Below, one piece after another: positions 2,351-18,685 of a stretch of 64,000 nt of DNA. This DNA comes from Candidatus Poribacteria bacterium (lineage in GTDB: Bacteria; Poribacteria; WGA-4E; WGA-3G): assembly GCA_028820635.1 (NCBI GenBank), contig JAPPIG010000023.1:50135-114134 (forward strand), given 5' to 3'. The position numbers and the translations under genes are program-made. How positions within the stretch are numbered: the stretch's first letter is position 1; each line of letters opens with the position of its first letter. Below the pieces are notes generated by a model, which ran no database searches, was not told the origin of the DNA, and saw only the letters and a list, made by a program, of their open reading frames with translations.

Positions 2351-3148
2351 ATGAAGAATATGCTAAGAATTGCTATCGCTGCATTTGTTGCGATCTGCTG
2401 GATAATTGGCACAAGTAATGCCGCTATAAATCCCGATAACATTACGGGAATGTGGCTATTTAATGAGGGTAATGGAAATACGGCAAAAGATTCTTCAGGT
2501 AACAAGAATGATGGTAAAATCCACGGTGCAAAGTGGGTTGATGGAAAGTTTGGGAAGGCACTTGAGTTCAATGGATCTGATAATTGGGTCGAAGTTCCTC
2601 ATTCAAACACTGTCGGGTTTAAAAAGGGTGTTTCCTTCACAATTACTGTCCATTTTAAAGGCACTAAAGTTGGTGGCTCGCTTGTCGGCAAAAACTATGA
2701 GGATAAATCGCAGGCACTTCCATGGTTTCTGCTTTGGAACGGTGGTGGGGACAACAAAGTAACACTTTATCTGCGAAATTCTGCTTCAGTGAGTTTTCGG
2801 GCAGATAGCACAAGCCAGATTGGTGATGACGAGTGGCACTTTGTTGCTGGTAGAGCCGATGCCAGCACTGGAAAAGCTTCAATATGGATAGATGGTAAGA
2901 AGGAAGCCGAGGTCGATTTTGACAAAAATGATGGATACGGCACAAGTGAAGGGGTACTCCATATCGCGCGGCACTTTGACAGATACACTAACGGAATTAT
3001 TGACGATGTTGCGCTTTTTAATGTCGCATTAAGTGAAGGTGATATGAAAACTCTTATGGATAATGGTGTTGAAGAAGCCGCCGCTGTGGAACCCGTCAAC
3101 AAATATACTACAACGTGGGCAAGAATCAAACGCCAAACTGTTAAATAA
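2351..3148 (+). CDS. secreted LamG/concanavalin-like lectin-domain protein
   Basis: 265 residues. A Sec signal peptide of about 24 residues ends near GTSNA. The rest is one LamG-type jelly roll (Laminin_G_3/ConA-like), shown by NITGMWLFNEGNGNTAKDSS, HGAKWVDGKFGKALEF, the DDEWHFVAGRAD strand and ASIWIDGKKEAE. Such domains bind carbohydrates or proteins outside the cell. GGAGGA stands 5 bases before the ATG. The last 15 residues hold the tail KYTTTWARIK, also found in the next gene and in an unrelated LRR protein at 45505. It forms a two-gene operon with its paralogue 15 bp downstream. The ligand is unknown. Confidence 0.85.
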   Translation: MKNMLRIAIAAFVAICWIIGTSNAAINPDNITGMWLFNEGNGNTAKDSSGNKNDGKIHGAKWVDGKFGKALEFNGSDNWVEVPHSNTVGFKKGVSFTITVHFKGTKVGGSLVGKNYEDKSQALPWFLLWNGGGDNKVTLYLRNSASVSFRADSTSQIGDDEWHFVAGRADASTGKASIWIDGKKEAEVDFDKNDGYGTSEGVLHIARHFDRYTNGIIDDVALFNVALSEGDMKTLMDNGVEEAAAVEPVNKYTTTWARIKRQTVK

Positions 3149-3163
3149 TAAGGAGAAATATTA

Positions 3164-3970
3164 ATGTTAAAAAATAAAAGTGTGGGAATTACGTTTACGA
3201 GTCTAATAACTGCTTTTTTGTTGATTGCGCTGCCTGGCTACGCTGAGTTTGACTTTGAGAATATCACTGCCATGTGGTTATTTGATGAAGGGGAAGGTGC
3301 TGCCGTAACCGACTCGTCAGACCAAGAAAATGAGGGGAAAATTCACGGTGCCAAGTGGGTAGATGGCAAATTCGGAAAAGCACTTGAATTTGATGGTACT
3401 GATGATTGGGTGGAAATTCCACACTCTGACAGTGTTGGGTTTGAAGCAGGAACATCATTCACCTTGACACTTCATTACAAAGGCACAAAAGTGGGTGGTT
3501 CGCTTGCGGGCAAAAACTACGAAGATAAATCGCAAGTTTTACCGTGGTATATGTTTTGGAATGGCGGCGGCGATGGCAAAATCACCTTTTTCCTACGTAA
3601 TGCTGGTGGAACGAGTTATAGACCACAAAGCACATCCAATATCTCAGATGACAAGTGGCATTTCATTGCTGGCATAGCAAACACTGACACAGGCAAGGCG
3701 AGTCTGTGGATAGATGGTAAAAAAGAAGCTGAAATTGATTTTGATACTAAAAGTGGATACGGCAATAGCGAAGGTGTTTTTCACATCGGACGCCACTTTG
3801 ATCGGTATACTGCTGGCATCATTGACGATATAGCGCTCTTTAATGTCGCCTTAGATGAAGCTGATTTACAATCAATTATGGATGATGGTCTTATGACTCT
3901 CACCGCTGTTGAAGCTGCGGGTAAACTCACAACGACGTGGGCAAGTGTTAAACAACGTATTGCCCGATAG
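3164..3970 (+). CDS. secreted LamG/concanavalin-like lectin-domain protein, paralogue
   Basis: 268 residues, clearly a tandem duplicate of the preceding gene: the block HGAKWVDGKFGKALEF is identical and most of the jelly roll is conserved. The signal peptide ends near PGYA. AAGGAGA precedes the ATG. The C-terminus carries the tail KLTTTWASVK, so the tail survived the divergence of the two copies. The function is presumably extracellular glycan or protein binding. No terminator is obvious downstream; about 170 bp separate it from the selenoprotein pair. Confidence 0.85.
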   Translation: MLKNKSVGITFTSLITAFLLIALPGYAEFDFENITAMWLFDEGEGAAVTDSSDQENEGKIHGAKWVDGKFGKALEFDGTDDWVEIPHSDSVGFEAGTSFTLTLHYKGTKVGGSLAGKNYEDKSQVLPWYMFWNGGGDGKITFFLRNAGGTSYRPQSTSNISDDKWHFIAGIANTDTGKASLWIDGKKEAEIDFDTKSGYGNSEGVFHIGRHFDRYTAGIIDDIALFNVALDEADLQSIMDDGLMTLTAVEAAGKLTTTWASVKQRIAR

Positions 3971-4140
3971 ACCTCAAGAATAGATGAGAAACTGACGCGA
4001 ATTAGTGTTTTAGCGAAAAACGAGTTAAATAGGAAGTCTATACCGCTATATTCGCGTCAGTATTCTTATAATAAATGAAGAAAACAAGACATAAAAAGAA
4101 CAAAGTAACATGTATTAAAGATATTGAAAAGGAACTCATG

Positions 4141-5310
4141 ATGAAAAAGATACTGACATTTCCTGCAATAGCATTTTTGCTATTAGCCGCATTGGGATGT
4201 GGAACTTCAGAGGATACGACGGACCCTGTCCCAACTGAAATCATGACAGGCGAATTCCGCGGGAGTATTGAATTACTTGAAGATGCAACTATTCAGGTGC
4301 ACTTGCTCAAAGCAGGAGAACTCTTCGCGCAAATTGAATTCGCAAAAGTAGGTGTATCACAGACAAGCGTTGGGAACGTTCAAGCCGATATCTTCGCGTC
4401 AACTGATTCAGGGGTCGGAAACTTTCGCGTTACCGATGCTGAACTCGGCGATTATACACTACAAATTTCTGCTAAGGGATACCAAGAGACTGAACTTAAC
4501 GTGACTGTCGTAGCGGATCAAGAGGTATCACTGGATAAGGTAGCTCTCGTGGCATTGGCAGAACCTGTATCACATCTGCGTGGGGTTTTAACCGACTCGG
4601 AAACGGGAGAGGTGCTTTCTGATGTGCTTGTCCAACTTACGGATAAGGCAGGTAAAGAGTATGAAGTATTAACAACGAAAGACGGTGTTTTTACCTTTGA
4701 GAATCTCCCCGTAGATCAAGGATTCACCTTGACGGTTATGCATAAAGGTTTTGAAGATAACACAGTTGATGTGGATCCGATTTCTGCTAATGAGACCTTT
4801 GAACTGGATGTAGAACTCACGGCAATACTTGAACCTGTGAAGTTGGATCCCGGTCAAGGATTAAGTATTGGCAGCCAAGCCCCCGAATTTCAGTTGTCTG
4901 ACGGGAATGATAAGGAGCATGCCCTTGCGGACTATGTTGGTAACAAAAAGGTTGCTATCGTCTTTTACCGCGGTGGTTGGTGACCGTTTTGTCGTGGGCA
5001 ACTCGGAGAGTTGCAAGACAATTATAATAAATTTCAAGCTGCAGGTGCTGAACTTATTGCTATTAGTTCTGATAATGTAGCAGCAACAAAACAAACGATT
5101 GAAAAAGAAGGTCTAAAATACGTCGTGCTCGCTGATAACGACAGAGAAGTAATTGAAGCTTACAACGTTGTTGATCCAGCTAACAAGAGAATAGCACGAC
5201 CTGCATCCTATGTTATTAGAAAAGATGGAAAAGTTGCATGGAAATCCCTTGATCCAAAGGTCGGACGTGTTCCAACAGCCAAAATTCTTGAAGAATTGGG
5301 CAAACTTTAA
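4141..5310 (+). CDS. lipoprotein peroxiredoxin-like selenoprotein (in-frame TGA = Sec281)
   Basis: Read through TGA 4981-4983, this is one 389-residue protein. The lipobox is LLAALGC. Two carboxypeptidase-regulatory-like beta domains follow (about residues 35-135 and 140-235), then an AhpC/TSA-type domain beginning GLSIGSQAPEFQLSD. The TGA sits exactly where this family has its catalytic cysteine: FYRGGW-U-PFCRGQL, a UxxC version of the usual GGWCPFCR. Homology continues unbroken after TGA in the same frame to the end (KVAWKSLDPKVGR). A hairpin follows at 4989-5021. The start at 4141 has AAGGA 7 bases upstream; 4138 is also possible. Expected role: thiol or peroxide redox chemistry on the outer face of a membrane. 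Sec insertion is inference; selA/B/C/D are not in the window. Confidence 0.85.
4989..5021 (+). promoter_or_regulatory. candidate SECIS hairpin, first selenoperoxiredoxin
   Basis: Outer stem TTGTC (4989-4993)/GACAA (5017-5021), inner stem GCAACTC (4998-5004)/GAGTTGC (5008-5014), apical loop GGA. It begins 8 bases after the first base of TGA, as expected for a bacterial SECIS placed inside the coding region. Confidence 0.6.
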
Positions 5311-5442: not shown

Positions 5443-6279
5443 ATGAAACAGATACAAAGTCTTTTCGCATTGATAGTTTTGCTGTTTGCTGCATTCGGTT
5501 GTGGTACAGCAGACAATCCCATTGATGACAGAGACAAAATTGAAACATTAACAGGCACACTGCAAGGAGAAGTGCAGTCAATTGATGGAGTAGCAATTCA
5601 TGTGCGCCTATTAAAAGACGGACAACTCGTCGCGCATACCGAAGCACATGGCAGCTACGAACTCAATGATATTGAGGCAGGAGATTACACGCTCCACATT
5701 TCTGCCAATGGATACCAAGAAGTTGAACACAATGTTACTATTGTTGGTGGAGAAACAGTTTCATTGGATAAAGTGTCACTTGTTGAATTAGCAATCCCTG
5801 AACATGATTTGGAACCGGGTGAAGGACTGAACATCGGTAGCCAAGCACCAGATTTTGAGTTACCCGATGGAAATGGTGAGTTACACGCTTTTGCAGACTA
5901 TATCGGAAATGACAAAAAGGTTGTACTCGTCTTTTATAGAACAGGTGGCTGAGGACTTTGCACATCACAACTCGTGGAGTTGCAACAGAATTACGAAAAA
6001 ATCCAAGATACTGGTGCCGAACTTTTTGCTATCAGTTCAGAAAACGTGGCGTTAACACAAAGGACAGCAGAAAACCACGGACTCAAATATCCTGTGCTAT
6101 CTGACAACAAAAAAGAGATGATTATCGCTTACAATGTGCTCGATCCGTATGACACCAGAATAGCACGTCCTGCAGCGTATATTATTACGCCAGACGGAAA
6201 GGTTGCTTGGAAATCACTTGATACTGCGGGGGCCCGTGTGCCGACAGCAACTATCCTAACAGAATTGGATAAACTCTGA
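5443..6279 (+). CDS. lipoprotein peroxiredoxin-like selenoprotein 2 (in-frame TGA = Sec170)
   Basis: A 278-residue paralogue of the previous gene. The lipobox is LLFAAFGC, followed by one carboxypeptidase-regulatory-like domain (about residues 30-115), then the peroxiredoxin-like domain from GLNIGSQAPDFELPD. TGA 5950-5952 again replaces the catalytic cysteine: FYRTGG-U-GLCTSQLVELQ, keeping UxxC but lacking the tryptophan before it. The frame continues with full homology to KVAWKSLDTAGARVPTA. The real stop is TGA 6277-6279, so this gene uses TGA in both ways. The stop overlaps the ATG of the DUF362 gene by one base (TGATG), suggesting translational coupling. AAGGAG lies 12 bases before the start. 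Sec is inferred from the paired occurrence and the conserved hairpin. Confidence 0.83.
5965..5985 (+). promoter_or_regulatory. candidate SECIS hairpin, second selenoperoxiredoxin
   Basis: CAACTC (5968-5973), loop GTG, GAGTTG (5977-5982). The stem starts 18 bases after the first base of TGA, the same offset as the CAACTC stem in the first gene, with a different loop. Confidence 0.55.
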
Positions 6280-7394
6280 TGAAACGTCAAGATAAAGTTA
6301 TAGCAAACATCCTCGCGGACAGTGAAGAGGGGATGCAAAAACGAGATCCGCTCAACCGGCGTCAATTCCTAAGTCGTATCGGTACTATTAGTGGTGCTGC
6401 GCTAAGTACTCTCCCCGCTTTCGCGCAAATCGGTGGTGGGCGTGTGTTGACCCCTCCAACGGAAACAGCAGCACTTCCGCCTGTAGTCGAAGCCCTCGGC
6501 AAACAGGTTTGGGATGAAGACAGACTCAACGAAGATGCTGTTGGTGAAATGATCGATCAGGCAATGATGAAGTTGACTGGTCGAGATTCTGCCAAAGAGG
6601 CGTGGCGTGACTTTGTGCTACCAGACCACATCGTCGGTATTAAAATTAATCCGCTTGCCGGCCCAAAGTTAAGTACACATTCAGCAATAGTCAACAAAAT
6701 TATTGAGGGATTATTCAGTGCTGGCGTACTTAGAAAGCAGATTATTATTTGGGACCGGTTTGAAGCACATCTACTTAACGCTGGGTATCCGATTAAGACA
6801 GATGAAGGGGATGTCCGAACACTTGCCTCTGATATGGATGGCATCGGGTATGACGACAAAGTGTTTTATGAAACAGAAAAAGACAGTATCACCAGACGAG
6901 AAAATGAAAGCACCCGTTCTCAATATTCTCGCATTGTTACAGAACTGGTAGATGTATTAATTAATGTGCCTGTCTTGAAACATCACGATATGGCAGGCGT
7001 AAGCGGTTGTTTGAAAAACATGGCTTTTGGTAGTGTTGACAATACACAACGGTTCCACGGTAAGCCCCTCTACTGCAATCCTGCTATCGGCGAGATTTTT
7101 CAAAACAAAGTTCTGAAAGAAAAGGTCGTCCTCAACATCGTTGACGGGTTGACTGCATCTTTTGACCGAGGTCCTGAATATGACGCAGAGAGTACTTGGA
7201 ACTTTGGTGGCATGTTTGTGGGGGCTGATCCGGTCATCCTTGATGTGCTTATTCTTCAAACTGTGAATCTGAAACGCGAGGAGATGGGATTGAGTTCAAT
7301 GTCTAAATATGCCAACCATATCACTACCGCAAGCAGTCTCGGTTTGGGCAGCAATTCACTGAATCAGGTTAATCTACAGAAAATCGAGGTATAA
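6279..7394 (+). CDS. Tat-exported DUF362 domain protein
   Basis: 371 residues. The N-terminus has NRRQFLSRIG followed by a hydrophobic stretch ending PAFA, a twin-arginine signal, although about 25 residues precede the RR. The body matches DUF362: DHIVGIKINPLAGP, then INVPVLKHHDMAGVSGCLKN, then DGLTASFDRGPE. DUF362 proteins are uncharacterised; many are linked to iron-sulfur or redox contexts, and export by Tat suggests a folded or cofactor-bearing protein. No ferredoxin-type cysteine cluster is visible here. It starts within the stop codon of the second selenoprotein and is followed 4 bp later by a small lipoprotein, so the genes are likely co-transcribed. Confidence 0.8.
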   Translation: MKRQDKVIANILADSEEGMQKRDPLNRRQFLSRIGTISGAALSTLPAFAQIGGGRVLTPPTETAALPPVVEALGKQVWDEDRLNEDAVGEMIDQAMMKLTGRDSAKEAWRDFVLPDHIVGIKINPLAGPKLSTHSAIVNKIIEGLFSAGVLRKQIIIWDRFEAHLLNAGYPIKTDEGDVRTLASDMDGIGYDDKVFYETEKDSITRRENESTRSQYSRIVTELVDVLINVPVLKHHDMAGVSGCLKNMAFGSVDNTQRFHGKPLYCNPAIGEIFQNKVLKEKVVLNIVDGLTASFDRGPEYDAESTWNFGGMFVGADPVILDVLILQTVNLKREEMGLSSMSKYANHITTASSLGLGSNSLNQVNLQKIEV

Positions 7395-7398
7395 TTCC

Positions 7399-7641
7399 AT
7401 GAAAAGCAGATACATTCCTATATTTATTCTACTGAGCGTATTTTTCATAGCTGTTGTATTTTCAGGTTGTACGGTGACCTTCACAGCAAACGACTCGTTA
7501 CAGTTTAACCTTTCAAAACCGACTGACAAAACCGTATCCCTTGTTACTGAATTTGAATCAGGTGAAGAAGATAACGTTTCTGGTGATGTCACACAGAAGG
7601 CTGGCAGTGTCTGTGCTGGCGGAGCATGCATCATTTATTAG
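7399..7641 (+). CDS. small lipoprotein, unknown
   Basis: 80 residues. The hydrophobic N-terminus ends with lipobox VFSGC at about residue 24, so the mature lipoprotein is about 57 residues. It is acidic in the middle (EFESGEEDN) and ends VCAGGACIIY, with a CxxxxC pair that could be disulfide or metal linked. It lies 4 bp after the DUF362 gene with GAGGT just upstream, so it is probably the last gene of the selenoprotein operon. I recognise no family. Confidence 0.65.
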   Translation: MKSRYIPIFILLSVFFIAVVFSGCTVTFTANDSLQFNLSKPTDKTVSLVTEFESGEEDNVSGDVTQKAGSVCAGGACIIY

Positions 7642-7692: not shown

Positions 7693-9711
7693 TTACTGAA
7701 TTAAAGGTTCACTCCTTATGTTCTGTTTTCTATTTCCAGAGATTTTGTCCCAATCCCATAGTAGGACTGTGCCGTCTGCACTACCGCTGGCAAGAGTTTT
7801 ACCGTCCTGTGAAAATACAAGTTTTTCTATCGGTTCTGTATGTCCAGACAATGTCCCCAAACTTCTACCTGCTTTCACATCCCATAATTTAATTGAGTAA
7901 TTCCACATATCACTTCCAGAACCAATTAGAATAGTGCCATCAGGTGAAAGTATAACTCTACCCCTGAATCCATCTAATTTGCTTGGTAGATAAGTTATAT
8001 TGTTAGGTTTGTCGGCTACTAATTCTATGTGTAAATTCCACAAGTAAATACCGCTTTTGCGGATCATTGCAAGGGTAGAACTATCATGTGAAAATAGTGA
8101 TACCCTAACATTCTCAATATTGGGTGGAGATATGTCACGCTGTGTCGTAATATCCCATACTTTTGGACTATTACTATCACTTATAGCAGCAAGTTTTTTC
8201 CCATCAGGTGAGAACACTAATCTCCGTACGGACAAAGGTTGTTCTGTGTTAAGTTTAAACAATTCCGTTCCTGTCTTTAGGTGCCACGCACGAATTCCTT
8301 GATCATTGCCTACTACAAGTATGTTGTTGTACGGTGAAATTGCGAATACTTTTCTTCTGTCGTGGACTTCCAGCCAAGGTAGAGAAAGTTTCTCACTTGT
8401 GGCAATATTCCAAAATTGACGATCACTAAGATCTCCGCCTTCTCTGCTACTTTGGAATCCGAATCCGACTGGATTGAAGTAAAACATCCCTTCACTGCCG
8501 CGCCAAGCAAAATACTTAGCCTTCGGTGACAAAACGACTGTCCCGGATATATTGCCATGTTCGACAGTTAAGGTCCTCAATTTTTGCCGAGTATTTAGAC
8601 TCCATACATCAACAGTACCGTTATAGGCAGCGCTCGCAAGAGTTACCCCATCTTCGGAAAATGCGACTGCTTTTACCCATTCTGTATATCCATCTGCAAA
8701 AATAGTGAGTTCTTCTCCATTATCTGGATTCCAGAAACGGATTGTGCCATCTGCACTGCCACTGGCAAGACAACTGCCAAAAACGGGTGTTGATTCTGGT
8801 GCGAAGGCTAAAGCGTTGATGGTATTTTTGTGCCCTGTTAGTGTGACACGTTCTTTCTGTGATTCTAAATCCCAGAGTTTGATTGATTCTCTTGCGTCCC
8901 CACTGGCAATGGTTTTGCCGTCCCCTGAAAATGCGATGGCGGTAATCCAAGCATTATGTGCTTTAAGCGTCGCAAGTTCGGTGTGGTTCTGAGTATCCCA
9001 TAATTTTACCGTTTTGTCAGCACTCCCGCTTGCGAGGATTTTTTTATCTTTTGAGAACGCCAGCGACAAAATCTCCAGGTCTCTGCCATCTCCATGTCCC
9101 GTAAGAGTTGCGTATTGACTGTTTGTCGTTGTATCCCATAACTGAATTTTTCCTTCTCGGTTTGCAGCAGCAAGGCTACTACCATCTTGGGAAAATATCA
9201 CCTTATCTCCTGAAACAACGAAACTTGCTTCCGATAAATTGCTTCCGATTTCTATATTCCAGTAGGCAACTTTACGTAACCTGTTTATACCGACAAGTGT
9301 TTTGCCATAAAACGTCAATGCAGATAATGTATTGGGACTCTGAGTTAATGTGAGAGTAGAGTGTTTGCTTTTAGTTTCTACATCCCAAACTTGAAGGATA
9401 GAGTTGTTAAATCCTCCGCTTGCAAGGTATTTTCCATCAGGTGAAAATGCAAGTGCGTTCACATGCCCAGTATGTCCCGTGAATAAAGCTGTCTCTTTTC
9501 CATCAGGCACGGTATATAACCAAACGCCGACATCTGTTCCTACCGCGAGATATGCACCATCCGATGAAAATCGCATGATATTTATCCCACCTTTTCCAAG
9601 CCGTGCGATTGCCCCTTCTGGTAGACCGACCTGTGTGTTATCTTGTGCAAAACCAATTGTGAGTGCCGCAGCTAACAACAAATATGTGGTGAAAAAATGT
9701 TTTGCTTTCAT
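7693..9711 (-). CDS. secreted WD40 protein, 14 repeats (array member 5)
   Basis: 672 residues with a Sec signal peptide ending near GFAQ, followed by the locus-wide leader DNTQVGLPEGAIARLGKGGI. I count 14 WD40-like units (for example NALAFSPDGKYLASGGF, EKLVFSQDGKTLASGSADGT), enough for two seven-bladed propellers. A short tail follows the last blade and there is no sorting domain. It is the last of five paralogues read in the same direction; the gap to the previous gene (221 bp) is filled with palindromic repeats. GGAG lies 9 bases before the ATG. WD40 propellers are binding platforms; export makes this an extracellular or periplasmic one. Partner unknown. Confidence 0.88.
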   Translation of the reverse strand: MKAKHFFTTYLLLAAALTIGFAQDNTQVGLPEGAIARLGKGGINIMRFSSDGAYLAVGTDVGVWLYTVPDGKETALFTGHTGHVNALAFSPDGKYLASGGFNNSILQVWDVETKSKHSTLTLTQSPNTLSALTFYGKTLVGINRLRKVAYWNIEIGSNLSEASFVVSGDKVIFSQDGSSLAAANREGKIQLWDTTTNSQYATLTGHGDGRDLEILSLAFSKDKKILASGSADKTVKLWDTQNHTELATLKAHNAWITAIAFSGDGKTIASGDARESIKLWDLESQKERVTLTGHKNTINALAFAPESTPVFGSCLASGSADGTIRFWNPDNGEELTIFADGYTEWVKAVAFSEDGVTLASAAYNGTVDVWSLNTRQKLRTLTVEHGNISGTVVLSPKAKYFAWRGSEGMFYFNPVGFGFQSSREGGDLSDRQFWNIATSEKLSLPWLEVHDRRKVFAISPYNNILVVGNDQGIRAWHLKTGTELFKLNTEQPLSVRRLVFSPDGKKLAAISDSNSPKVWDITTQRDISPPNIENVRVSLFSHDSSTLAMIRKSGIYLWNLHIELVADKPNNITYLPSKLDGFRGRVILSPDGTILIGSGSDMWNYSIKLWDVKAGRSLGTLSGHTEPIEKLVFSQDGKTLASGSADGTVLLWDWDKISGNRKQNIRSEPLIQ

Positions 9712-9779
9712 CGCTTCTACTCCATTTGGATAATTATGGTAGAGATTAGAATTACCGCTACATTCCTGAACTGTGAATC

Positions 9780-9870
9780 AACGCTGAATGCGCGTATGGC
9801 ATGCAGCGGGAGGGAACTCCGATTCCCGACTGCTCCTAAGTTTCTGTCGCGATTCGGAGATCGCTCCTAC
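9780..9870. repeat. cluster of short palindromic repeats inside the WD40 operon
   Basis: Three words in a row: AACGCTGAATGC...GCATGCAGCG (9780-9808), GGAGGGAACTCCGATTCCC (from 9809) and GTCGCGATTCGGAGATCGCT (9846-9870). They sit in the 221-bp gap between two WD40 genes and could act as RNA hairpins in the transcript. Confidence 0.65.
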
Positions 9871-9932
9871 AGAGGAGATGTAGAATTATTTCTATAGTCC
9901 ACTATAAATTCCCGTGCAATGCAGGGTTAAAG

Positions 9933-12257
9933 TTATTGATTGAGATTTGATGTATCTATTGGCAGGAGGTTGTCATCTTTGTCAAAAGTGAAATCTGCGA
10001 ATCCAACACCTGTGATACTAATCCGAAAGTTCCCCAGCCCATCGGTCATGAGACTAACATCGCCCCTACTCATATATCCTAATACTCTTATCTGTAGGGA
10101 TCCATCACTTTGATACCTATTCCTATTATTTATTTCTCTAAGAATGACATTACCTTTCTCTTTTTTTACTTGATAGTTATTTTGCTTTAGCCAGTTTTGC
10201 ACGACTTCCGAGTCTTTTTTCCAAGGCTTTTTTACGATTTTATCTGGCACTTCTCTAACACCGATTTTGTTCCAATCCCAAAAGAGTACAGTACCATCTT
10301 GGCTGCCACTGGCAAGCATCTTTCCGTCGGGAGAAAAATCCAATGTTTCAATCGGTTTTGTATGTCCGTTCACAGTTCCTAAACCGTTACCTGTTTCTAC
10401 ATCCCATATTTGAACATCATACTCTTTAACCTGCGATCTTGCAGCCAGAAGAGATCTGCTGTTTGGAGAAAACAATATGACATTCGTAACACCCCTAAAA
10501 TCATTTAAAATCATGCTGGATTCTCCAATTCCTGTTGATGTTACTTTTGACAAAATGACACCGTACCGATCTTTCACTGCAAGGGTGGTACCATCGGGTG
10601 AGAATGCCACTACTTCAGATCGATCATTTGCTGTAGCAAAAGGAGTAAGGTCACGCTTCGAATTGATATTCCAGACCTGTGTTGGGACCCGAAGTCCATA
10701 AGTGGCAAGTAAAGAACCGTCAGATGAAAATATCAACTTTCTTTCTCCGAACGGTTCTTTCGTTTTTAGGTGAAACATTTTCAATCGTGTGTTCGTATCC
10801 CACAATTCAATTGTCTGTGAATTGCCGTAAGCCAATGTTTTTTTATCAGGTGAAAATGCCACTGCTGTAGCCTTTCCGCCTACCTCCAACTCGGGAACGG
10901 GAATCTCATTTCCAGTAGCTATCTCCCATAGTTTCATATGTTTGTCAATTTTGAATTCTGAACGCCTAAGTCCAATCATAGCAGTACCACCCCAACTCAT
11001 AAAGCGCATAGCATCAGGTGACAATACAAGTTGACGTGCCATATCGCTCCTGCCAGCAGAAAAGGTAATTAGTTCTTGCTTCGTTTTTAGACTCCAAATC
11101 TCAATAGTTCCGTTATATGATCCGCATGCCAGTGTTGTGCCATCTTCAGAAAACTTAACTGCCTTTACAGATTCGGTATGACCTGATGTAAATGTAGTGA
11201 TTTCTTCTCCTGTGTCTTGATTCCAAAACCGGATTGTGCCATCGTAACTACCACTCGCCAATGTTCTTCCATCAGGGGAAAACGTTAATGCGTTGATTGC
11301 GCTTGCATGTCCTAATAGCGTGGCACGTTCGGCATGTGTCTCTATATCCCATAATTTGATAACCTTATTCGCATCACCACTTGCCAAGATTCTTCCATCT
11401 TTAGAAATAGCTAACGCATTAATCCACCCTTTATGTCCTTCAAGTATCGTAAGTCTTTTCCGTTTATCAGCATCCCATAATGGTACAGTTTTATCTTCAC
11501 CTCCGCTTGCAAGTACTCTTCCATCGGGTGAAAACGCTATAGCAGTAATATTTCGATCTCTTGGGGAATTAACCATACCTTCAACCAATTTTACGGATCC
11601 CAACAAAGTATTATGTCCCCTGAGAGTGGCTCGCTTTTTGCCAGAATTCGAATCCCACAAATATATTTTTCCATCATTATGTCCAGTGGCAAAGATGTTC
11701 TGATCTTCAGCAAAGGATATTGCATGATATGCGTCTAACTTCCACAATTCTGATCCTAAGTTCAACAGCTTTTTGCCGGTGCTTGCGTTCCAATACTCAA
11801 TTTGACCAGTTCTATCCAGACTTATGAGTGTTGTACCACTAAATGTCAACGCCTTAATAAACATTACTCTTTCAGTTAATGTGGGTGTAGAAAGAATGTT
11901 ACCTGTATCTAAATCCCAAACCTGAATAAAAGGGATTTCCACTCCAGCGCTTGCAAGCATTCTGCTATCTGATGAAAACGCAAGGGCGTTCACCTGACCA
12001 ATATGTTCAGTGAATAAAGCGGTCTCTTTTCCATCTGGGACATCGTATAACCACACGCCTACATCCGTTCCTACAGCGAGGTGTGTACCGTCCGGTGAAA
12101 AGCGAATAATATTGATCCCACCTTTGCCAAGACGTGCGATTGCGCCTTCAGGTAAACCGACTTGTGTGTTATCTTGTGCAAAACTGGTTGAAAGTATTGC
12201 TAAAATCAATAGAAAAGTCAGGCAAAATAGGCTTTTGATTTTCATGGCTACATTCAT
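9933..12257 (-). CDS. secreted WD40 protein with extra C-terminal domain (array member 4)
   Basis: 774 residues. The signal peptide ends near STSFAQ, followed by the leader QVGLPEGAIARLGKGGI and about 14 WD40 repeats up to MLASGSQDGTVLFWDWNKI. A C-terminal region of about 110 residues follows, with a predicted helix (EVVQNWLKQNNYQVKKEKG) and a beta-rich end (SITGVGFADFTFDKDDN). The same domain ends array member 3 and is absent from the other three. The ATG at 12257 overlaps the upstream gene's TGA (ATGA), so translation is likely coupled; an internal ATG at codon 5 is an alternative start. Confidence 0.88.
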   Translation of the reverse strand: MNVAMKIKSLFCLTFLLILAILSTSFAQDNTQVGLPEGAIARLGKGGINIIRFSPDGTHLAVGTDVGVWLYDVPDGKETALFTEHIGQVNALAFSSDSRMLASAGVEIPFIQVWDLDTGNILSTPTLTERVMFIKALTFSGTTLISLDRTGQIEYWNASTGKKLLNLGSELWKLDAYHAISFAEDQNIFATGHNDGKIYLWDSNSGKKRATLRGHNTLLGSVKLVEGMVNSPRDRNITAIAFSPDGRVLASGGEDKTVPLWDADKRKRLTILEGHKGWINALAISKDGRILASGDANKVIKLWDIETHAERATLLGHASAINALTFSPDGRTLASGSYDGTIRFWNQDTGEEITTFTSGHTESVKAVKFSEDGTTLACGSYNGTIEIWSLKTKQELITFSAGRSDMARQLVLSPDAMRFMSWGGTAMIGLRRSEFKIDKHMKLWEIATGNEIPVPELEVGGKATAVAFSPDKKTLAYGNSQTIELWDTNTRLKMFHLKTKEPFGERKLIFSSDGSLLATYGLRVPTQVWNINSKRDLTPFATANDRSEVVAFSPDGTTLAVKDRYGVILSKVTSTGIGESSMILNDFRGVTNVILFSPNSRSLLAARSQVKEYDVQIWDVETGNGLGTVNGHTKPIETLDFSPDGKMLASGSQDGTVLFWDWNKIGVREVPDKIVKKPWKKDSEVVQNWLKQNNYQVKKEKGNVILREINNRNRYQSDGSLQIRVLGYMSRGDVSLMTDGLGNFRISITGVGFADFTFDKDDNLLPIDTSNLNQ

Positions 12258-14578
12258 TTATTTGTGTTTTTTCCTTCGTCAAGAGACTTGTGTTTCAGTT
12301 TTCCTTCATCATCAAACATAAACGTGCCTAACCCTACACCAGCCACACGAATTTCAAGAACACCGTTTAAGTCAATCTTAACATTTACCTTGCCACTTCC
12401 TAATCTTCCTCCGCCGCCTCCGGAAATTCTGGCTCTACTACCACCGCGTGTAAGTGTATATCCATTTGAGGTTTTCTTAAGTTGATAACCGTTTTTCTGC
12501 ATCCAGTTTATGATCGCTTCTGCTTCTTCTGCTTTGCTGGCATATTCCGCAGGCTTATCAGGAGGTGTCAAATTGTTGCTAAGGTTTTTTCCTTTAGCAT
12601 CATTTTTCGCTTTGGTAACGATTTTTTCCCAATCCCAAAGAAGGACTGTACCATCTTTGCTTCCACTTGCAAACGTTTTACCGTCTGTTGAAAATTCTAA
12701 GGTTGTAATTTCCTCAGTATGTCCTGATAGAGTTCCAAGACCCCAGCCGTTCTTCACACCCCATAACTGAATAAGATTTTCCCAACCTTTTCTTTTAAAA
12801 GTAATAAGGACATCTCCGTCAGGTGAGAACATTAATTCCTCGTTATATCCACTATTAAGTATTTTACCGCGTTGCTTCATGCCGGTTGGTGTGATATCCC
12901 AAAAAACAATACGATCATGATCCCCAGCGGCAAGGAGTGTACTGTCGTGTGAAAATGCTACTGCTTTGGCACGTTCCATGAATGGAGGCGTAATTTCTTG
13001 CTGCGTCACGACATCCCATATTTGTGCTCGGACATGACCACCACTTGATGCAAGTAGTTTGCCGTTAGGAGAAAACTCAATCTTCATTGAAAAAGGATTC
13101 TCCAAGTTAAAGCGGAGCATCTCTTCACCAGTGTTTATATCCCACGAAAAAATGCCACCTCTACGACCAATTCCAGCGACAAGTATTTTGTTGTCCGGAG
13201 AGATTGCAAGTGCGTTCACTCTTCTATCCATATCCTGCCAAGGTCCAGAGATATTATCACCAGTGGTTATATCCCACAATTGGATATTTTTCTGCATACC
13301 TGCTCCTGAACCTCGAAATCCAAAACCATGGGGTCTGAATGCAAGTGTTGCACCGTTGACACCTTGACTAACAAGATGTGTCGCATCCGGTGAAAATGCT
13401 ATGCCATTGGTACTATCGTTTTGTGCTGCAGTAAAGGTGGTTAGTTCACGTTTCGTCTTTACGCTCCAAACATCAACAGTTCCATCAAAGAATGCACTTG
13501 TGAGTATTGTGCCGTTTTCTGAGAATGCGACTGTCTTAACCCACTCTGTGTGTCCAGCGGTAAAAGTAGAAATTTCTTCTCCAGTATCTTGATTCCAGAA
13601 CCGAATTGTGCCATCGTAACTACCACTCGCCAATGTTTTTCCATCAGGTGAAAACGCTAATGCGCTAACCGCATTTGTATGTCCAATGAGTGTAGCCCGT
13701 TCCTGTTTTGTGTTTACATCCCAAAGTTTAATGACTTTATTTGTATCGCCACTTGCTAAGATACTCCCATCAGCAGAGAAAGCTACAGCAATAATCCAAC
13801 CATTATGACCTTTGAAGGTGGTAAGGTTCTTACGATTTTCAGTATTCCACAATCGGACAGTTTTATCTAAACTTCCACTTGCAAGCACTTTTCCATCGGG
13901 AGAAAACGCCAAAGCCCAAACATCTTTGTCATCTCTATTAAGTAATCTTGCATGTCCCGTTAGGTTTGCTTGTCGTTTCCCCGTTGTTGCATCCCATAAA
14001 CGGATTTTGCCATCTCTATGTCCAGAGGCAAGTATGTTGTTTGCTGGAGAAAATACAACCGCCTCGTGAGATTGCATCCGACTTGAACTGGAAGTTTTAT
14101 TGCCAGTTTCAATATCCCAATGTGTGAATTTCCCAACCATATCCATGCTGACAAGTGTTTTATCGTCTTCAGAGAATACTAATGCCTCAATTGAATCAGT
14201 CGGTCTTGATAATGTGAATTGTGATCGCTTCTTTCCAGTTTCTATATCCCAAAGTTGAATAACGGGGTTGTTAAATCCCCCGCTTGCGAGGATTCTTCCA
14301 TCAGGTGAAAATGCAAGTGCATTAACATGCCCAGTATGTCCCGTGAATAAAGCGGTCTCTTTTCCACTTGGCACATCGTATAGCCACACACCGACATCTG
14401 TTCCTACTGCGAGATGCGTGCCATCAGGTGAAAACTGCATGATATTGATCCCGCCTTTGCCAAGACGTGCGATTGCACCTTCAGGTAGACCAGCTTGCGT
14501 ATTGTCTTGTGCGAAACTGCTTGAGAGCAGTGTAACTGTGAATAGCATAATTGTGAAGGATATGATTTTAGTTTTCAT
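12254..14578 (-). CDS. secreted WD40 protein with extra C-terminal domain (array member 3)
   Basis: 774 residues. The signal peptide ends near SSSFAQ, then QAGLPEGAIARLGKGGI and about 14 WD40 repeats (LAFSPDGKVLASGSLDKT, VAFSADGSILASGDTNK). The C-terminal domain (about residues 675-774) resembles that of member 4: EAEAIINWMQKNGYQLKK, then a glycine-rich stretch and VAGVGLGTFMFDDEGK. AAGGAAA lies before the ATG. Only 2 bp separate it from the frameshifted member 2 upstream and it overlaps member 4 by 4 bp, so it belongs to the same operon. Confidence 0.88.
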   Translation of the reverse strand: MKTKIISFTIMLFTVTLLSSSFAQDNTQAGLPEGAIARLGKGGINIMQFSPDGTHLAVGTDVGVWLYDVPSGKETALFTGHTGHVNALAFSPDGRILASGGFNNPVIQLWDIETGKKRSQFTLSRPTDSIEALVFSEDDKTLVSMDMVGKFTHWDIETGNKTSSSSRMQSHEAVVFSPANNILASGHRDGKIRLWDATTGKRQANLTGHARLLNRDDKDVWALAFSPDGKVLASGSLDKTVRLWNTENRKNLTTFKGHNGWIIAVAFSADGSILASGDTNKVIKLWDVNTKQERATLIGHTNAVSALAFSPDGKTLASGSYDGTIRFWNQDTGEEISTFTAGHTEWVKTVAFSENGTILTSAFFDGTVDVWSVKTKRELTTFTAAQNDSTNGIAFSPDATHLVSQGVNGATLAFRPHGFGFRGSGAGMQKNIQLWDITTGDNISGPWQDMDRRVNALAISPDNKILVAGIGRRGGIFSWDINTGEEMLRFNLENPFSMKIEFSPNGKLLASSGGHVRAQIWDVVTQQEITPPFMERAKAVAFSHDSTLLAAGDHDRIVFWDITPTGMKQRGKILNSGYNEELMFSPDGDVLITFKRKGWENLIQLWGVKNGWGLGTLSGHTEEITTLEFSTDGKTFASGSKDGTVLLWDWEKIVTKAKNDAKGKNLSNNLTPPDKPAEYASKAEEAEAIINWMQKNGYQLKKTSNGYTLTRGGSRARISGGGGGRLGSGKVNVKIDLNGVLEIRVAGVGLGTFMFDDEGKLKHKSLDEGKNTNK

Positions 14579-14580
14579 GT

Positions 14581-16580
14581 TTAATTTCCTTTATTTTTAT
14601 GTGCTTTGGTAATGATTTTTCCCCAGTCCCATAAAAGAACGGTGCCATCATTGCTACCACTTGCCAGTATTTTACCGTCGTGTGAAAACACAAGTGCTTC
14701 TATCGGTTCTGTATGCCCAGACAAGATTCCAAGACTATTACCTGTTTCCACATCCCATAATTTAATTGGATTACCCAACATGTGCATACCTGACCCAACG
14801 AGTATGGCGCCATCAAGAGAAAAAACCAATTCATTTTAAATCCGCCTAAATTTCCTGCGATTAAGATAGGTGACTTTTCCAATTCTATGTCTAATTTCCA
14901 TAAGTAAATGCCTTCATTGCTCACCGTTGCAAGCACAGAACTATCTGGTGAAAATGCCAACGTACTTGTCCTTTTGATATTGGGTGGTGTGATGTCACGC
15001 TGCGTAGAAATATCCCATACTTGTAGGTTGCCAGAACGCCCTGTGACAGCAAGTTTTTTTCCGTCAGGTGAGAACATCAGTTTATCATTGAACGAAGGTT
15101 GTTTTGCGTTAAGTTGGAATAATTCTATTCCAGTGTTCAGGTGCCAGGCACGAATTTCTTGGCGACTGCTTGCAGCAAATATATTGCTATTTGGTGAGAA
15201 TACAGCTGCAGAAGGCAAGATGACAACATCTTGCAAAGGAAAGGGTAATTCCTCGCCTGTCATTATATCCCATAATTGAAGACGCTTTATACCTACATTT
15301 CCATCCCCACCACCATGCAGTCCGAATCCTACCGGATTAAATACAATCCAACCGCCGCTGCCACGACAAGCAAGAAACTTAGCATCCGGTGACAAAACGA
15401 CTGTTTGTGTGTTATTGCTCTGCGCAGTAGTGAAGTTCATCAGTTCCTGTCGAGTCTTTAGACTCCATACATCTACAGTTCCATTAAAGGCGGCACTCGC
15501 GAGGGTTGTTCCATTTTCAGAAAAAGCGATTACTTTTATCCACTCTGTATGTCCAGTCGTAAAAATAGTAAGTTCCGCTCCATTTTCTGGATTCCAGAAA
15601 CGGATTGTTCCATCTGCACTGCCACTCGCAAGACACCCACCGTAACGGGGTGTTCCCACAGGTGCGAAGACTAAAGCATTAATAGTGTTTTTATGTCCCC
15701 TAAGGGTTGTACGTTCTTGCTGTGATTCTAAATCCCAGAGTTTGATAACCTTGTCTGCGTCTCCACTTGCAATGGTTTTTCCGTCACTTGAGAATGCAAC
15801 GGTGGTAACCCAAGCATCATGTCCTTTAAGTTTCTCGAGTTCGGTGTAGTTCTGCGTATCCCACAACATTACCGTTTTGTCTTCACTTCCGCTGGCGAAT
15901 ATACTATTATCAGGCGAAAACGCTAAAGCCCAAATATCCGTATGTCTACCACGGGCATGTCCTTTGAGAACTCCTGACTGGCTGCTTGTGGTTGTGTCCC
16001 ATAGGTGAATTTTTCCGACTTGATCTGAAACTGCAAAATTACTGCCATCTTGAGAAAAGACAGTCCTATCAAACGAATTATCTAAACTGAACCTTAATAA
16101 TTTTTCGCCGGTGTCAACATGCCAATAGGTTATTTCCTTACCTCTATTTATGCTGATTAATGTCCGACCATAGAATGTCAATGAAGATAATACATTGGGA
16201 AACCCCTGAGTTGCTGTGACGGTTGAGTGTTTGTTCTTAGTTTCCATATCCCAAAGTTGAATAACGGGGTTGTTAAATCCCCCGCTTGCGAGAATTCTTC
16301 CATCAGGTGAAAATGCAAGCGCGTTCACATGCCCAGTGTGTCCCGTGAACAAAGCAGTCTCTTTTCCATCAGGCACATCATATAACCAAACGCCCACATC
16401 TGTCCCTACAGCAAGTTGTGTGCCATCGGGTGAAAACCGCATGATATTTATACCACCTTTGCCAAGCCGTGCGATTGCCCCCTCAGGCAGACTAACCTGG
16501 GTACTGTCTCGCGCAAAACTGCTTGAGTCCATCGTAATAATCAACAGCAAAATGATGAAAAATGGATATTTGTTTTTCAT
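14581..16580 (-). pseudogene. secreted WD40 protein with -1 frameshift (array member 2)
   Basis: The first frame encodes 626 residues: signal peptide, leader QVSLPEGAIARLGKGGI and 12 WD40 repeats. It then runs into unrelated sequence ending at 14700. The lost repeats 13-14 continue in the next frame (FSLDGAILVGSG ... ILASGSNDGTVLLWDWGKI) to 14581. The break coincides with a run of six T on the coding strand near 14820-14825. One extra T would restore a 666-residue protein whose spacing matches the paralogue at 7693 exactly. It may be a sequencing or assembly indel, a recent mutation, or slippage at the run; the sequence alone cannot decide. Without correction the second propeller would be incomplete. 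Confidence 0.8.
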
Positions 16581-16583
16581 AGA

Positions 16584-18611
16584 TCAATTTCCTTTGTTTT
16601 CTTTTGCTTTGGAGATGGTTTTTTCCCAGTCCCAGAGGAGGACTGTGCCGTCCGCTGCACCACTTGCAAGAATTTTTCCATCGTGTGAAAACGCCAATGT
16701 CTCAATCCATTTCGCATGTCCAGATACATTCCCCAAATCATTGCCTGTATCCACATCCCAAAACTGGATAAGACTTTTTCGACCATTATATTGTTGTACG
16801 TCAATAATGGTTTTCCCATCGGGAGAAAACATTAAGATGTTACCAAACCCTCGACGACTATTACGGGTGATCTCCCTATATTTTTCAATACTTGTTGGAG
16901 TTACACGCCATAGATCAATCCCCCCACGATATTTGAGAGCAAGTAGAGAACTGTCTGGAGAAAACGCTAATCCATCGGAATTTTGGATGTTCGGTAATGT
17001 AATTTTGCGCTGCTCAACAACATCCCATAGCTGTGTTTGAACAAATGTGCCATGTATTGCGAGAAGTTTCCCGTTAGGTGAGAACACTAATCTTTTTCCA
17101 AACGGTTCCTTCATTTTAATATTAAATAGCTCGGTACCAGAGTTTATGTCAAATAGACTGATACTCTGACGATGAGTGCCTGCAGCGAGAATTTTGTTAT
17201 CAGGTGAGAATGCGAGTGCTGATGTCTCTTGTGGGAAAGATATGAGTTTGTCCCCTGTGGGAAGAATCGACAACCGAATTTCTTTGTGGGATTTCGATCT
17301 GGCAGTTGCGGTAGTCCCTTCTGAACTGATAATAGTATCTACTCCGTTGCAAGCAAAGAGCGTAGCGTCTTGAGAGAATGCTAATGCGTTTATAGCATCG
17401 AAATGTGGAACCGATGGAGAAGGTAATTCTTTTCCTGTCTCAACATGCCATATTTGCACTACGCCATCATATCCTGCACTGCATAACATGGTGTTATTTG
17501 TACTGAACGCAAGGGCTTTCACTGATGCTGTATAGTCTATCGTAAAGATTGATTGTTCTTTTCCGTCATTTGTGTTCCAGAATCGCACAGTGCCGTCAGC
17601 GCTTCCACTCGCAAGTAGTCCTTTTTCTGTGGGAGAGAACATTAGTGCGTTAATGTTATTCTTGTGTCCAGAAAGAGTGGCAAGATGCCGACCTTCTTTG
17701 GCATCCCACAACATAATTATTCTGTCAGCACTACCACTTGCAAGTATTTTACTGTCTGGTGAAAAAGCGACCGTATTAATGATTTCCGTATGTCCTTTAA
17801 GACTGATACGTTCCGTTTTGGTGCTGGTATCCCATAATCGGATCATGTTGTCGTCGTGTGCGCTCGCGATGGTTTTGTTATCGGGTGAAATTGCTAATGT
17901 TTCAACACCTTTTTTGACCTCTTTATTCTTTGGGTTTCCACCAAGTAACTTAGAGACGGTATTTCCTAAGGAGAGATTTGATTTTACCTTAAATACATTA
18001 CCTAAACTACCATCGACTGTATCACCTAAACGGATTTTACATGCGATTGCATCCCCTGTAACAAATGTCTTACCGTCTTTGGCAAATGCAACGACTGACT
18101 TTGAATTATTGAATTGTTTCTTTGATATATCTCTACCTGTTTCAATATCCCACTCTGTAATATGTCCTGATTTGCCGATACTGAAAAGTGTTTTATTGTT
18201 TTCGGAAAATACCAGTGCTGAAACTCCAGAAATCTTTTGGGGTAATGTGAAGGTTGATAACTTATTGCCTGTTTCCAAATCCCACATAAGAATGACGGAA
18301 TTATTATACCCACCACTTGCGAGTTTCTTGCCATCTGGTGAGAATGCGATTACGTTGCTTTCCTCAGTATATCTTGGAAATAAAGCAGTCTCATTTCTGT
18401 CCTCCACATCGTATACCCATACACCAATACTTGTTCCAACTGCAAGATGTTCCCCATTAGGTGAAAACTGCATCACATTTATCCCACCTTTGCCAAGCCG
18501 TGCTATCGCGCCTTCAGGTAATCCGACTTGAGTATTGTCTTGAGCAAAATTGGTTAAAATCGGAACAAAACTGAAAACTAAAATTGAGAAAAACGTATAT
18601 AACCTACTCAT
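16584..18611 (-). CDS. secreted WD40 protein, 14 repeats (array member 1)
   Basis: 675 residues from the ATG at 18611, chosen because GAGAG precedes it and the signal peptide (ending near TNFAQ) begins there; a longer form from 18638 adds nine residues. The leader is QVGLPEGAIARLGKGGI and about 14 WD40 units follow (NTVAFSPDSKILASGSADR, ETLAFSHDGKILASGAADGT). It is the first gene of the five-gene array, with only 3 bp to member 2. The 150-bp region upstream is divergent to the Dabb gene and should hold the array promoter, which I could not place with confidence. Likely an exported double-propeller binding protein. Confidence 0.87.
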   Translation of the reverse strand: MSRLYTFFSILVFSFVPILTNFAQDNTQVGLPEGAIARLGKGGINVMQFSPNGEHLAVGTSIGVWVYDVEDRNETALFPRYTEESNVIAFSPDGKKLASGGYNNSVILMWDLETGNKLSTFTLPQKISGVSALVFSENNKTLFSIGKSGHITEWDIETGRDISKKQFNNSKSVVAFAKDGKTFVTGDAIACKIRLGDTVDGSLGNVFKVKSNLSLGNTVSKLLGGNPKNKEVKKGVETLAISPDNKTIASAHDDNMIRLWDTSTKTERISLKGHTEIINTVAFSPDSKILASGSADRIIMLWDAKEGRHLATLSGHKNNINALMFSPTEKGLLASGSADGTVRFWNTNDGKEQSIFTIDYTASVKALAFSTNNTMLCSAGYDGVVQIWHVETGKELPSPSVPHFDAINALAFSQDATLFACNGVDTIISSEGTTATARSKSHKEIRLSILPTGDKLISFPQETSALAFSPDNKILAAGTHRQSISLFDINSGTELFNIKMKEPFGKRLVFSPNGKLLAIHGTFVQTQLWDVVEQRKITLPNIQNSDGLAFSPDSSLLALKYRGGIDLWRVTPTSIEKYREITRNSRRGFGNILMFSPDGKTIIDVQQYNGRKSLIQFWDVDTGNDLGNVSGHAKWIETLAFSHDGKILASGAADGTVLLWDWEKTISKAKENKGN

Positions 18612-18685
18612 TTGTCTCTCTTTTAAATATGGGAACATGTGTTAAACATTGAATGGGTGAACAAGGTTAGAATCAGACAAAAGAC

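Follow-up and report, generated by a model that had tools for sequence, protein, structure and literature searches.

The window analysed here, a stretch of 64,000 nucleotides from a genome of Candidatus Poribacteria, contains an open reading frame for a predicted peroxiredoxin-like (Prx-like) lipoprotein which is interrupted at 4981 by an in-frame TGA codon. The locus raises the question whether this TGA ends the protein or is translated as selenocysteine (Sec, U), and, if Sec is inserted, what the residue would do and whether its decoding affects the genes that follow. The original prediction was that TGA replaces the catalytic Cys of the family, giving a selenoprotein with a UxxC motif.

In-frame TGA codons of PrxU1, PrxU2 and their relatives

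The frame, hereafter called PrxU1, was identified from the list of open reading frames and from Pfam matches, and is followed by a second gene of the same family, PrxU2. The relevant features are:

4138..5310, + strand, PrxU1, 390 amino acids with the TGA at 4981 read as Sec
4981..4983, + strand, in-frame TGA of PrxU1, predicted Sec codon (U-P-F-C motif)
4998..5014, + strand, SECIS-like hairpin of PrxU1, GCAACTC-GGA-GAGTTGC
5443..6279, + strand, PrxU2, second predicted lipoprotein of the PrxU1 family, 278 amino acids with the TGA at 5950 read as Sec
5950..5952, + strand, in-frame TGA of PrxU2, predicted Sec codon (U-G-L-C motif)
5968..5982, + strand, SECIS-like hairpin of PrxU2, CAACTC-GTG-GAGTTG

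PrxU1 is a single frame, broken only by the TGA at 4981–4983. A lipoprotein-type signal is followed by two carboxypeptidase-regulatory-like beta domains (PF13620 and PF13715, two stretches each in Pfam), as had been predicted, and by a C-terminal AhpC/TSA domain (PF00578, residues 244–368, E 9.6e-35), which spans the TGA and so bears out the expectation of homology on both sides of the codon. The motif around the TGA is FYRGGW-U-PFCRGQL. PrxU2 has one beta domain and an AhpC/TSA domain (Pfam, E 1.6e-30) that is 65 % identical to that of PrxU1, with its TGA in the same alignment column, in the motif FYRTGG-U-GLCTSQL. The terminal stop codon of PrxU2 is also TGA. The signals end in LAALGC (PrxU1) and FAAFGC (PrxU2), which are lipobox-like by eye only, and similar endings recur in the relatives. 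The lipoprotein form had been thought unusual; the beta domains and the lipobox-like AALGC agree with the form described, but the protein is not a single oddity, since the form recurs across the phylum. A repeat resembling VQLA(N/S)RKLAI, in at least one copy, is found in the signal-peptide region of the Sec lipoproteins of loci L048, L050–L053, L055, L056, L058 and L061 and of database protein P0050, and it looks like a short in-frame repeat that is spreading.

Relatives of PrxU1 were found in 80 of the 84 genomes of the phylum with a four-member profile (A2, E ≤ 1e-15), and every match listed from this search contained exactly one internal TGA. When the loci from this search, from a search of the window's own genome and from a wider search for relatives were pooled and duplicate sequences removed, 52 distinct poribacterial copies scored above 150 bits, lower-scoring family members being outside this count, and all 52 have TGA at the Sec column. 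These counts are unweighted, and the species, being related, are not independent of one another. Chance would not account for the TGA at 4981, since the adjoining gene and 52 of 52 poribacterial copies have TGA at the matching column.

The best 80 of 394 relatives, comprising 29 poribacterial loci and 51 loci from other phyla, were also compared. Within this set, the 33 copies at the poribacterial loci all have TGA at the Sec column, and the best copy of each locus from the other phyla has a Cys codon (26 TGC and 25 TGT, 51 of 51). The named records of the family are from Candidatus Poribacteria. The Cys proteins (Bacteroidetes, Paenibacillus, Myxococcota and others) are 27–42 % identical and share the motif with Cys in place of Sec, as GGWCPFC, GGWCPYC and similar sequences, so the prediction that family members carry Cys here proved right for those outside the phylum. 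One of the two patterns used to search for relatives ends in Cys and thus favours Cys forms, so the lack of poribacterial Cys forms should not be an artefact of that pattern. When all 57 aligned rows from other phyla were considered, one falls outside the motif and one has TGA. The latter lies in a Planctomycetaceae metagenome-assembled genome (L107:2456), as a further copy distinct from the Cys one; its TGA occupies the matching column and is followed by the stem CAACT-CGGGC-AGTTG.

Judged from the substitution pattern, the region after the TGA is under protein-type selection. The median dN/dS was 0.18 downstream of the TGA (540 of 1,326 pairs with dS 0.1–1.5) and 0.11 upstream of it (296 of 1,326 pairs with dS in the same range). 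The proteins in public databases are shorter: 72 of the 81 that match the Prx part of PrxU1 cover just 29–30 % of the query. Among six of these that were inspected, four (P0001, P0003, P0042 and P0050) stop at GGW, two of them named in the source as redoxin domain-containing proteins of Candidatus Poribacteria, and the remaining two have GGWCPFC and so belong to the Cys forms. Public gene calls thus shorten the family protein because the Sec codon is taken as a stop, and a family present in nearly the whole phylum is cut short in them.

Decoding of the TGA

The genome which contains the window (5.97 Mb in 136 contigs, 93.7 % complete) has the genes needed for Sec insertion. SelA (611.8 bits, cut-off 267.9), SelB (348.7 bits, cut-off 242.25) and SelD (370.1 bits, cut-off 125) were identified, as was a tRNA-Sec (78.1 bits, gathering score 47) with the anticodon TCA, read by eye, encoded 3′ of selB on the same strand. 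The search for these four genes, proposed with the original prediction as a check, thus found all of them above their cut-offs and left the Sec reading standing. The selD frame itself has an in-frame TGA.

With the Prx domain as query, the same genome yielded 20 matches, 12 without and 8 with an in-frame TGA. The eight are PrxU1, PrxU2, their close relatives L023 and L024, L026, two domains of the protein at L027/L030, and L036. The protein at L026:1396–2028 (− strand) is Sec-Prx-like with the motif U-P-N-S, without the second Cys; a UxxS Prx-like family appears in the table of a review (PMC13188914). The L027/L030 protein (L030:946–1962, G000 C118) has two AhpC/TSA domains, and in both of them an in-frame TGA occupies the peroxidatic position (TGGU in one, GRGU in the other); it matches the model for thioredoxin-dependent thiol peroxidase with 181.9 bits (cut-off 140). 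The nearest NCBIfam model for L036 is WAxxUGC_long, at 144.1 bits, under the cut-off of 300.

tRNA-Sec was called in 73 of the 84 genomes of the phylum, and the family is present in 9 of the 11 genomes in which it was not called. Among these nine, selA was above the cut-off in G035, G048, G077 and G024, and selB in G035, G048, G060 and G077. In G029, G032, G010 and G059 (completeness 81, 73, 61 and 83 %, respectively), which have the family but no called tRNA-Sec, selA and selB were both below their cut-offs, with fragments of selA found in G059; missing contigs would be the simplest reading of these gaps. Neither the family nor tRNA-Sec, selA or selB was found in G004 (95 % complete) at the limits used. 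The other genomes without the family do have Sec genes, G001 selA and selB, and G003 and G006 (76 and 64 % complete) tRNA-Sec, so Sec genes and the family are not paired without exception.

In bacteria, the SECIS hairpin that directs Sec insertion lies just 3′ of the UGA. The pattern CA(A/G)CTC-NNN-GAG(T/C)TG starts 15 bases after the TGA in the 52 poribacterial copies and forms a 6-bp stem. A G occurs within the first two triloop positions in all 52, and the distance from TGA to loop is 21 nucleotides. The codons that make up the stem are near-invariant (CTC 52/52, GAG 52/52, TTG 51/52 and CAA 49/52), whereas in the rest of the same domains GAG accounts for 22.5 % and GAA for 77.5 % of Glu codons, all six Leu codons are in use and the codons at other conserved Leu columns vary. 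Bacterial SECIS elements have been described as having a guanosine in a small apical loop (PMC1088965), and the hairpins of PrxU1 and PrxU2, having these properties, are predicted to be such elements.

In PrxU1 the free fold of the 50-nucleotide stretch yields the hairpin (z −3.0). In PrxU2, assigned from the shared pattern, the free fold of the 50-nucleotide stretch prefers another pairing and is no better than shuffled sequences (z −0.7). When the first 11 bases were held open, as by a ribosome at the UGA, the hairpin was the best fold in PrxU1, PrxU2, L023 and L024. The sites of L026, L036 and SelD and both sites of L027 are without the shared stem and have other hairpins, some of them weak (SelD −4.2 kcal/mol). 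Covariation in the hairpin was weak: five of the seven pairs are invariant, the only double change, at L098, preserves its pair, two other copies have G-U, and 40 of 500 shuffles reached the observed score. With so little variation, covariation was dropped as proof of the hairpin and the freezing of synonymous codons was used instead.

If the TGA were an ordinary stop, PrxU1 would be a truncated beta-domain lipoprotein followed by a decayed 3′ part or a separate Prx piece, as implied by the public gene callers that terminate the protein at GGW. This is very improbable, given the low dN/dS downstream, the TGA in all 52 distinct copies and the hairpin with its frozen synonymous codons, and the whole motif would then be lost from an otherwise intact domain. 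It is just as improbable that TGA is read as Cys or Trp without selenium, through a reassigned or ambiguous code, which would agree with the Cys at this column in homologues outside the phylum. TGA is still used for termination, as the terminal stop of 27 of the 52 distinct copies, by which reassignment of the stop codon was rejected; the hairpin pattern follows the internal TGA but was found within 60 bases after none of the 27 terminal TGAs, and the Sec genes are present. The chance that an error turned TGC or TGT into TGA is close to nil, even in a window from an assembly of 136 contigs: the same TGA is found in paralogues and in assemblies whose record prefixes and isolate names differ, its recurrence across the phylum refuting an error in practice.

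The Sec genes, the TGA throughout the phylum against Cys elsewhere, and the hairpin with its frozen codons make Sec, as a prediction, near certain. The TGA at 4981 is very probably read as Sec by SelA, SelB, SelD and tRNA-Sec, SelB binding the hairpin, as may be supposed, when the ribosome arrives at the TGA, and the product would be a likely exported, lipid-anchored redox enzyme of the thioredoxin fold, with U-P-F-C as its predicted active site.

Active site and related selenoproteins

In an alignment with the PrxQ/BCP-type chains 2ywn and 2cx3, the Cys of UxxC falls on the peroxidatic Cys and Sec on Thr or Ser; UPFC and UGLC occupy profile columns 43 (Sec) and 46 (Cys). The L027 protein aligns likewise: its Thr falls in the column of Sec and its TGA in that of Cys. 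The motif is consequently of the Prx-like UxxC type and not that of the Sec-peroxiredoxins (TxxU). The original prediction was correct in giving a UxxC motif but not in placing the TGA at the catalytic Cys in the classical, peroxidatic sense, as Sec lies on the Thr/Ser of TxxC.

The AlphaFold model of the mature part had a mean pLDDT of 87.2 (in the Prx part, one block was at 81 and all others reached at least 92) and placed Sec directly before the active-site helix. Foldseek matches of the predicted fold were Bcp4, AhpE and ResA. The PF00578 UxxC type is named thiol:disulfide oxidoreductase in a 2026 review (PMC13188914). Of the candidate functions, disulfide reduction in the envelope appears somewhat the more probable one, and a role as a bulk peroxidase is tentative and less likely. 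The Sec, at the start of the active-site helix, would act as the attacking selenolate and reduce a disulfide or peroxide outside the cytoplasm, with a selenenylsulfide to the Cys three positions further along as the intermediate.

The assignment of Sec could be correct and the protein nevertheless a genuine peroxiredoxin, with the UxxC Cys attacking the peroxide and Sec serving only to resolve it. The alignment of that Cys with the peroxidatic Cys of BCP/Prx proteins, and of Sec with a conserved Thr/Ser, is what such an enzyme would have. The classical peroxiredoxin signature is PxxxTxxC. R-G-G-W-U-P-F-C retains its Cys column but has Arg for Pro and Sec for Thr, and this, together with the name given to the UxxC type in the review, makes the peroxiredoxin reading unlikely, though well short of negligible. 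With Sec as the attacking residue, the preferred reading, a candidate partner or reductant would be the small dithiol lipoprotein encoded in the same operon (below).

UxxC Prx-like selenoproteins are already known as a class. As the original prediction stated, they occur in marine bacteria: the Sargasso Sea survey describes a Prx-like UxxC type that differs from the TXXU peroxiredoxins (PMC1088965). The PF00578 UxxC selenoproteins ('Prx-like 1' in the GOS survey) resemble PrxU1 in the AhpC/TSA domain, the UxxC motif, a SECIS-like hairpin and the existence of Cys homologues, according to the parts of the sources consulted (PMC1088965, PMC2398784, PMC13188914). The poribacterial family adds a lipoprotein-type signal, the beta domains, tandem copies and an operon with LamG and DUF362 genes, and no Cys form was found among its 52 distinct copies. 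The GOS survey mentions other Prx-like fusions and neighbouring selenoprotein genes (PMC2398784), so neither fusion nor adjacency is in itself a novelty. The Sec-peroxiredoxin PrxU (TxxU, NF040737) is similar in the Prx fold and in having Sec in the active-site loop, but its Sec is at the opposite end of the motif, and PrxU1 scores 40.6 bits against a cut-off of 270. The match to the SelL-related redox proteins (NF040769), a family that takes its name from a selenoprotein, was weak, 49.6 bits against a cut-off of 120. The multi-selenoprotein operons Tso and SAO, as outlined in the review (PMC13188914), are alike in having neighbouring selenoprotein genes and are otherwise other systems. What is new here is the predicted lipoprotein form, which extends across the phylum and had TGA in every poribacterial copy seen, the tandem genes and the conserved DUF362 operon.

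Poribacteria are sponge symbionts, and SelA and SelB are reported to co-occur in most sponge symbiont bins (PMC5649159). In the open-licence library searched, Poribacteria together with selenocysteine led to that source and one other, and no paper was found on Poribacteria together with selenoproteins. If the Sec reading is true, an uncultured phylum would be committed to selenium for redox chemistry of its envelope.

Gene order and the overlap with DUF362

The neighbouring genes of the putative operon are:

2351..3148, + strand, LamG-like protein (PF13385), conserved upstream neighbour
3164..3970, + strand, second LamG-like protein (PF13385)
6279..7394, + strand, DUF362 (PF04015) protein, Tat-like RR motif, start codon ATG sharing one base with the PrxU2 stop (TGATG)
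7399..7641, + strand, predicted lipoprotein of 80 amino acids with a conserved dithiol tail, CAGGACIIY

The order LamG, one or two Sec-Prx genes, DUF362 and the 80-amino-acid lipoprotein was found at 21 of 21 loci (L070–L090), these being 21 of the 29 poribacterial loci; no DUF362 match was found at the other eight (L091–L098). The DUF362 protein has RR at positions 27–28, by eye a Tat-like motif, in no fewer than 95 % of the 22 sequences compared, and when used as a query gave one match in its own genome. No relatives in the PDB were found by sequence at E ≤ 1. DUF362 and the LarA family belong to a common Pfam clan, as stated in one source (PMC11770544), which is too little to name the DUF362 reaction.

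The small lipoprotein had no Pfam match at E ≤ 0.01. It has 210 homologues, and those with a named organism among the 120 matches listed are from Poribacteria. Of its Cys residues, C24 is kept in all 22 sequences, and C72 and C77, close to the C-terminus, in all but L074 (21 of 22), whose sequence is cut at the end of its stretch; the tail across the relatives is CxGGAC(I/L)IY.

Where the start of DUF362 meets the stop of the last Sec-Prx gene, be it TGA or TAA, the two genes share one base at 20 of the 21 loci and four bases at the remaining one. The Shine-Dalgarno pairing of DUF362 was the weakest in the operon, with a median of −3.8 (21 starts); the medians for Prx, the small lipoprotein and LamG were −6.0 (15), −7.0 (16) and −9.3 (24), respectively. 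The Prx value is from 15 of the 21 loci, with the first in-frame ATG picked by hand, and the start at L086 is probably wrong.

The start of DUF362 on a selenoprotein stop, together with its weak ribosome site, suggests a selenium gate on the operon, in which DUF362 would be translated mainly by ribosomes that had decoded the UGA as Sec. This is a possibility, though a rather doubtful one. When selenium is short, ribosomes would halt approximately 330 bases before the DUF362 start, and the redox lipoprotein and the DUF362 enzyme exported by Tat would come under the control of a single recoding event. No literature linking DUF362 with selenium or selenoproteins was found, and among the papers listed none, judged by title and the start of the abstract, dealt with a downstream gene coupled to selenium. 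One source (PMC8124441) discusses how the translation of selB is coupled to that of the ORF after it, an idea that is related but not the same. With its stop-start overlap, the operon lends itself to a clean test of whether Sec decoding serves bacteria as a switch by which selenium controls a following gene. Another pair of genes in the window, 9933–12257 and 12254–14578, overlaps by four bases.

On the − strand, from 7693 to 18638, are five adjacent large, repeat-rich ORFs (WD40-like by eye) with starts like AQDNTQVGLPEGAIARLGKGGIN, forming a local array of paralogues.
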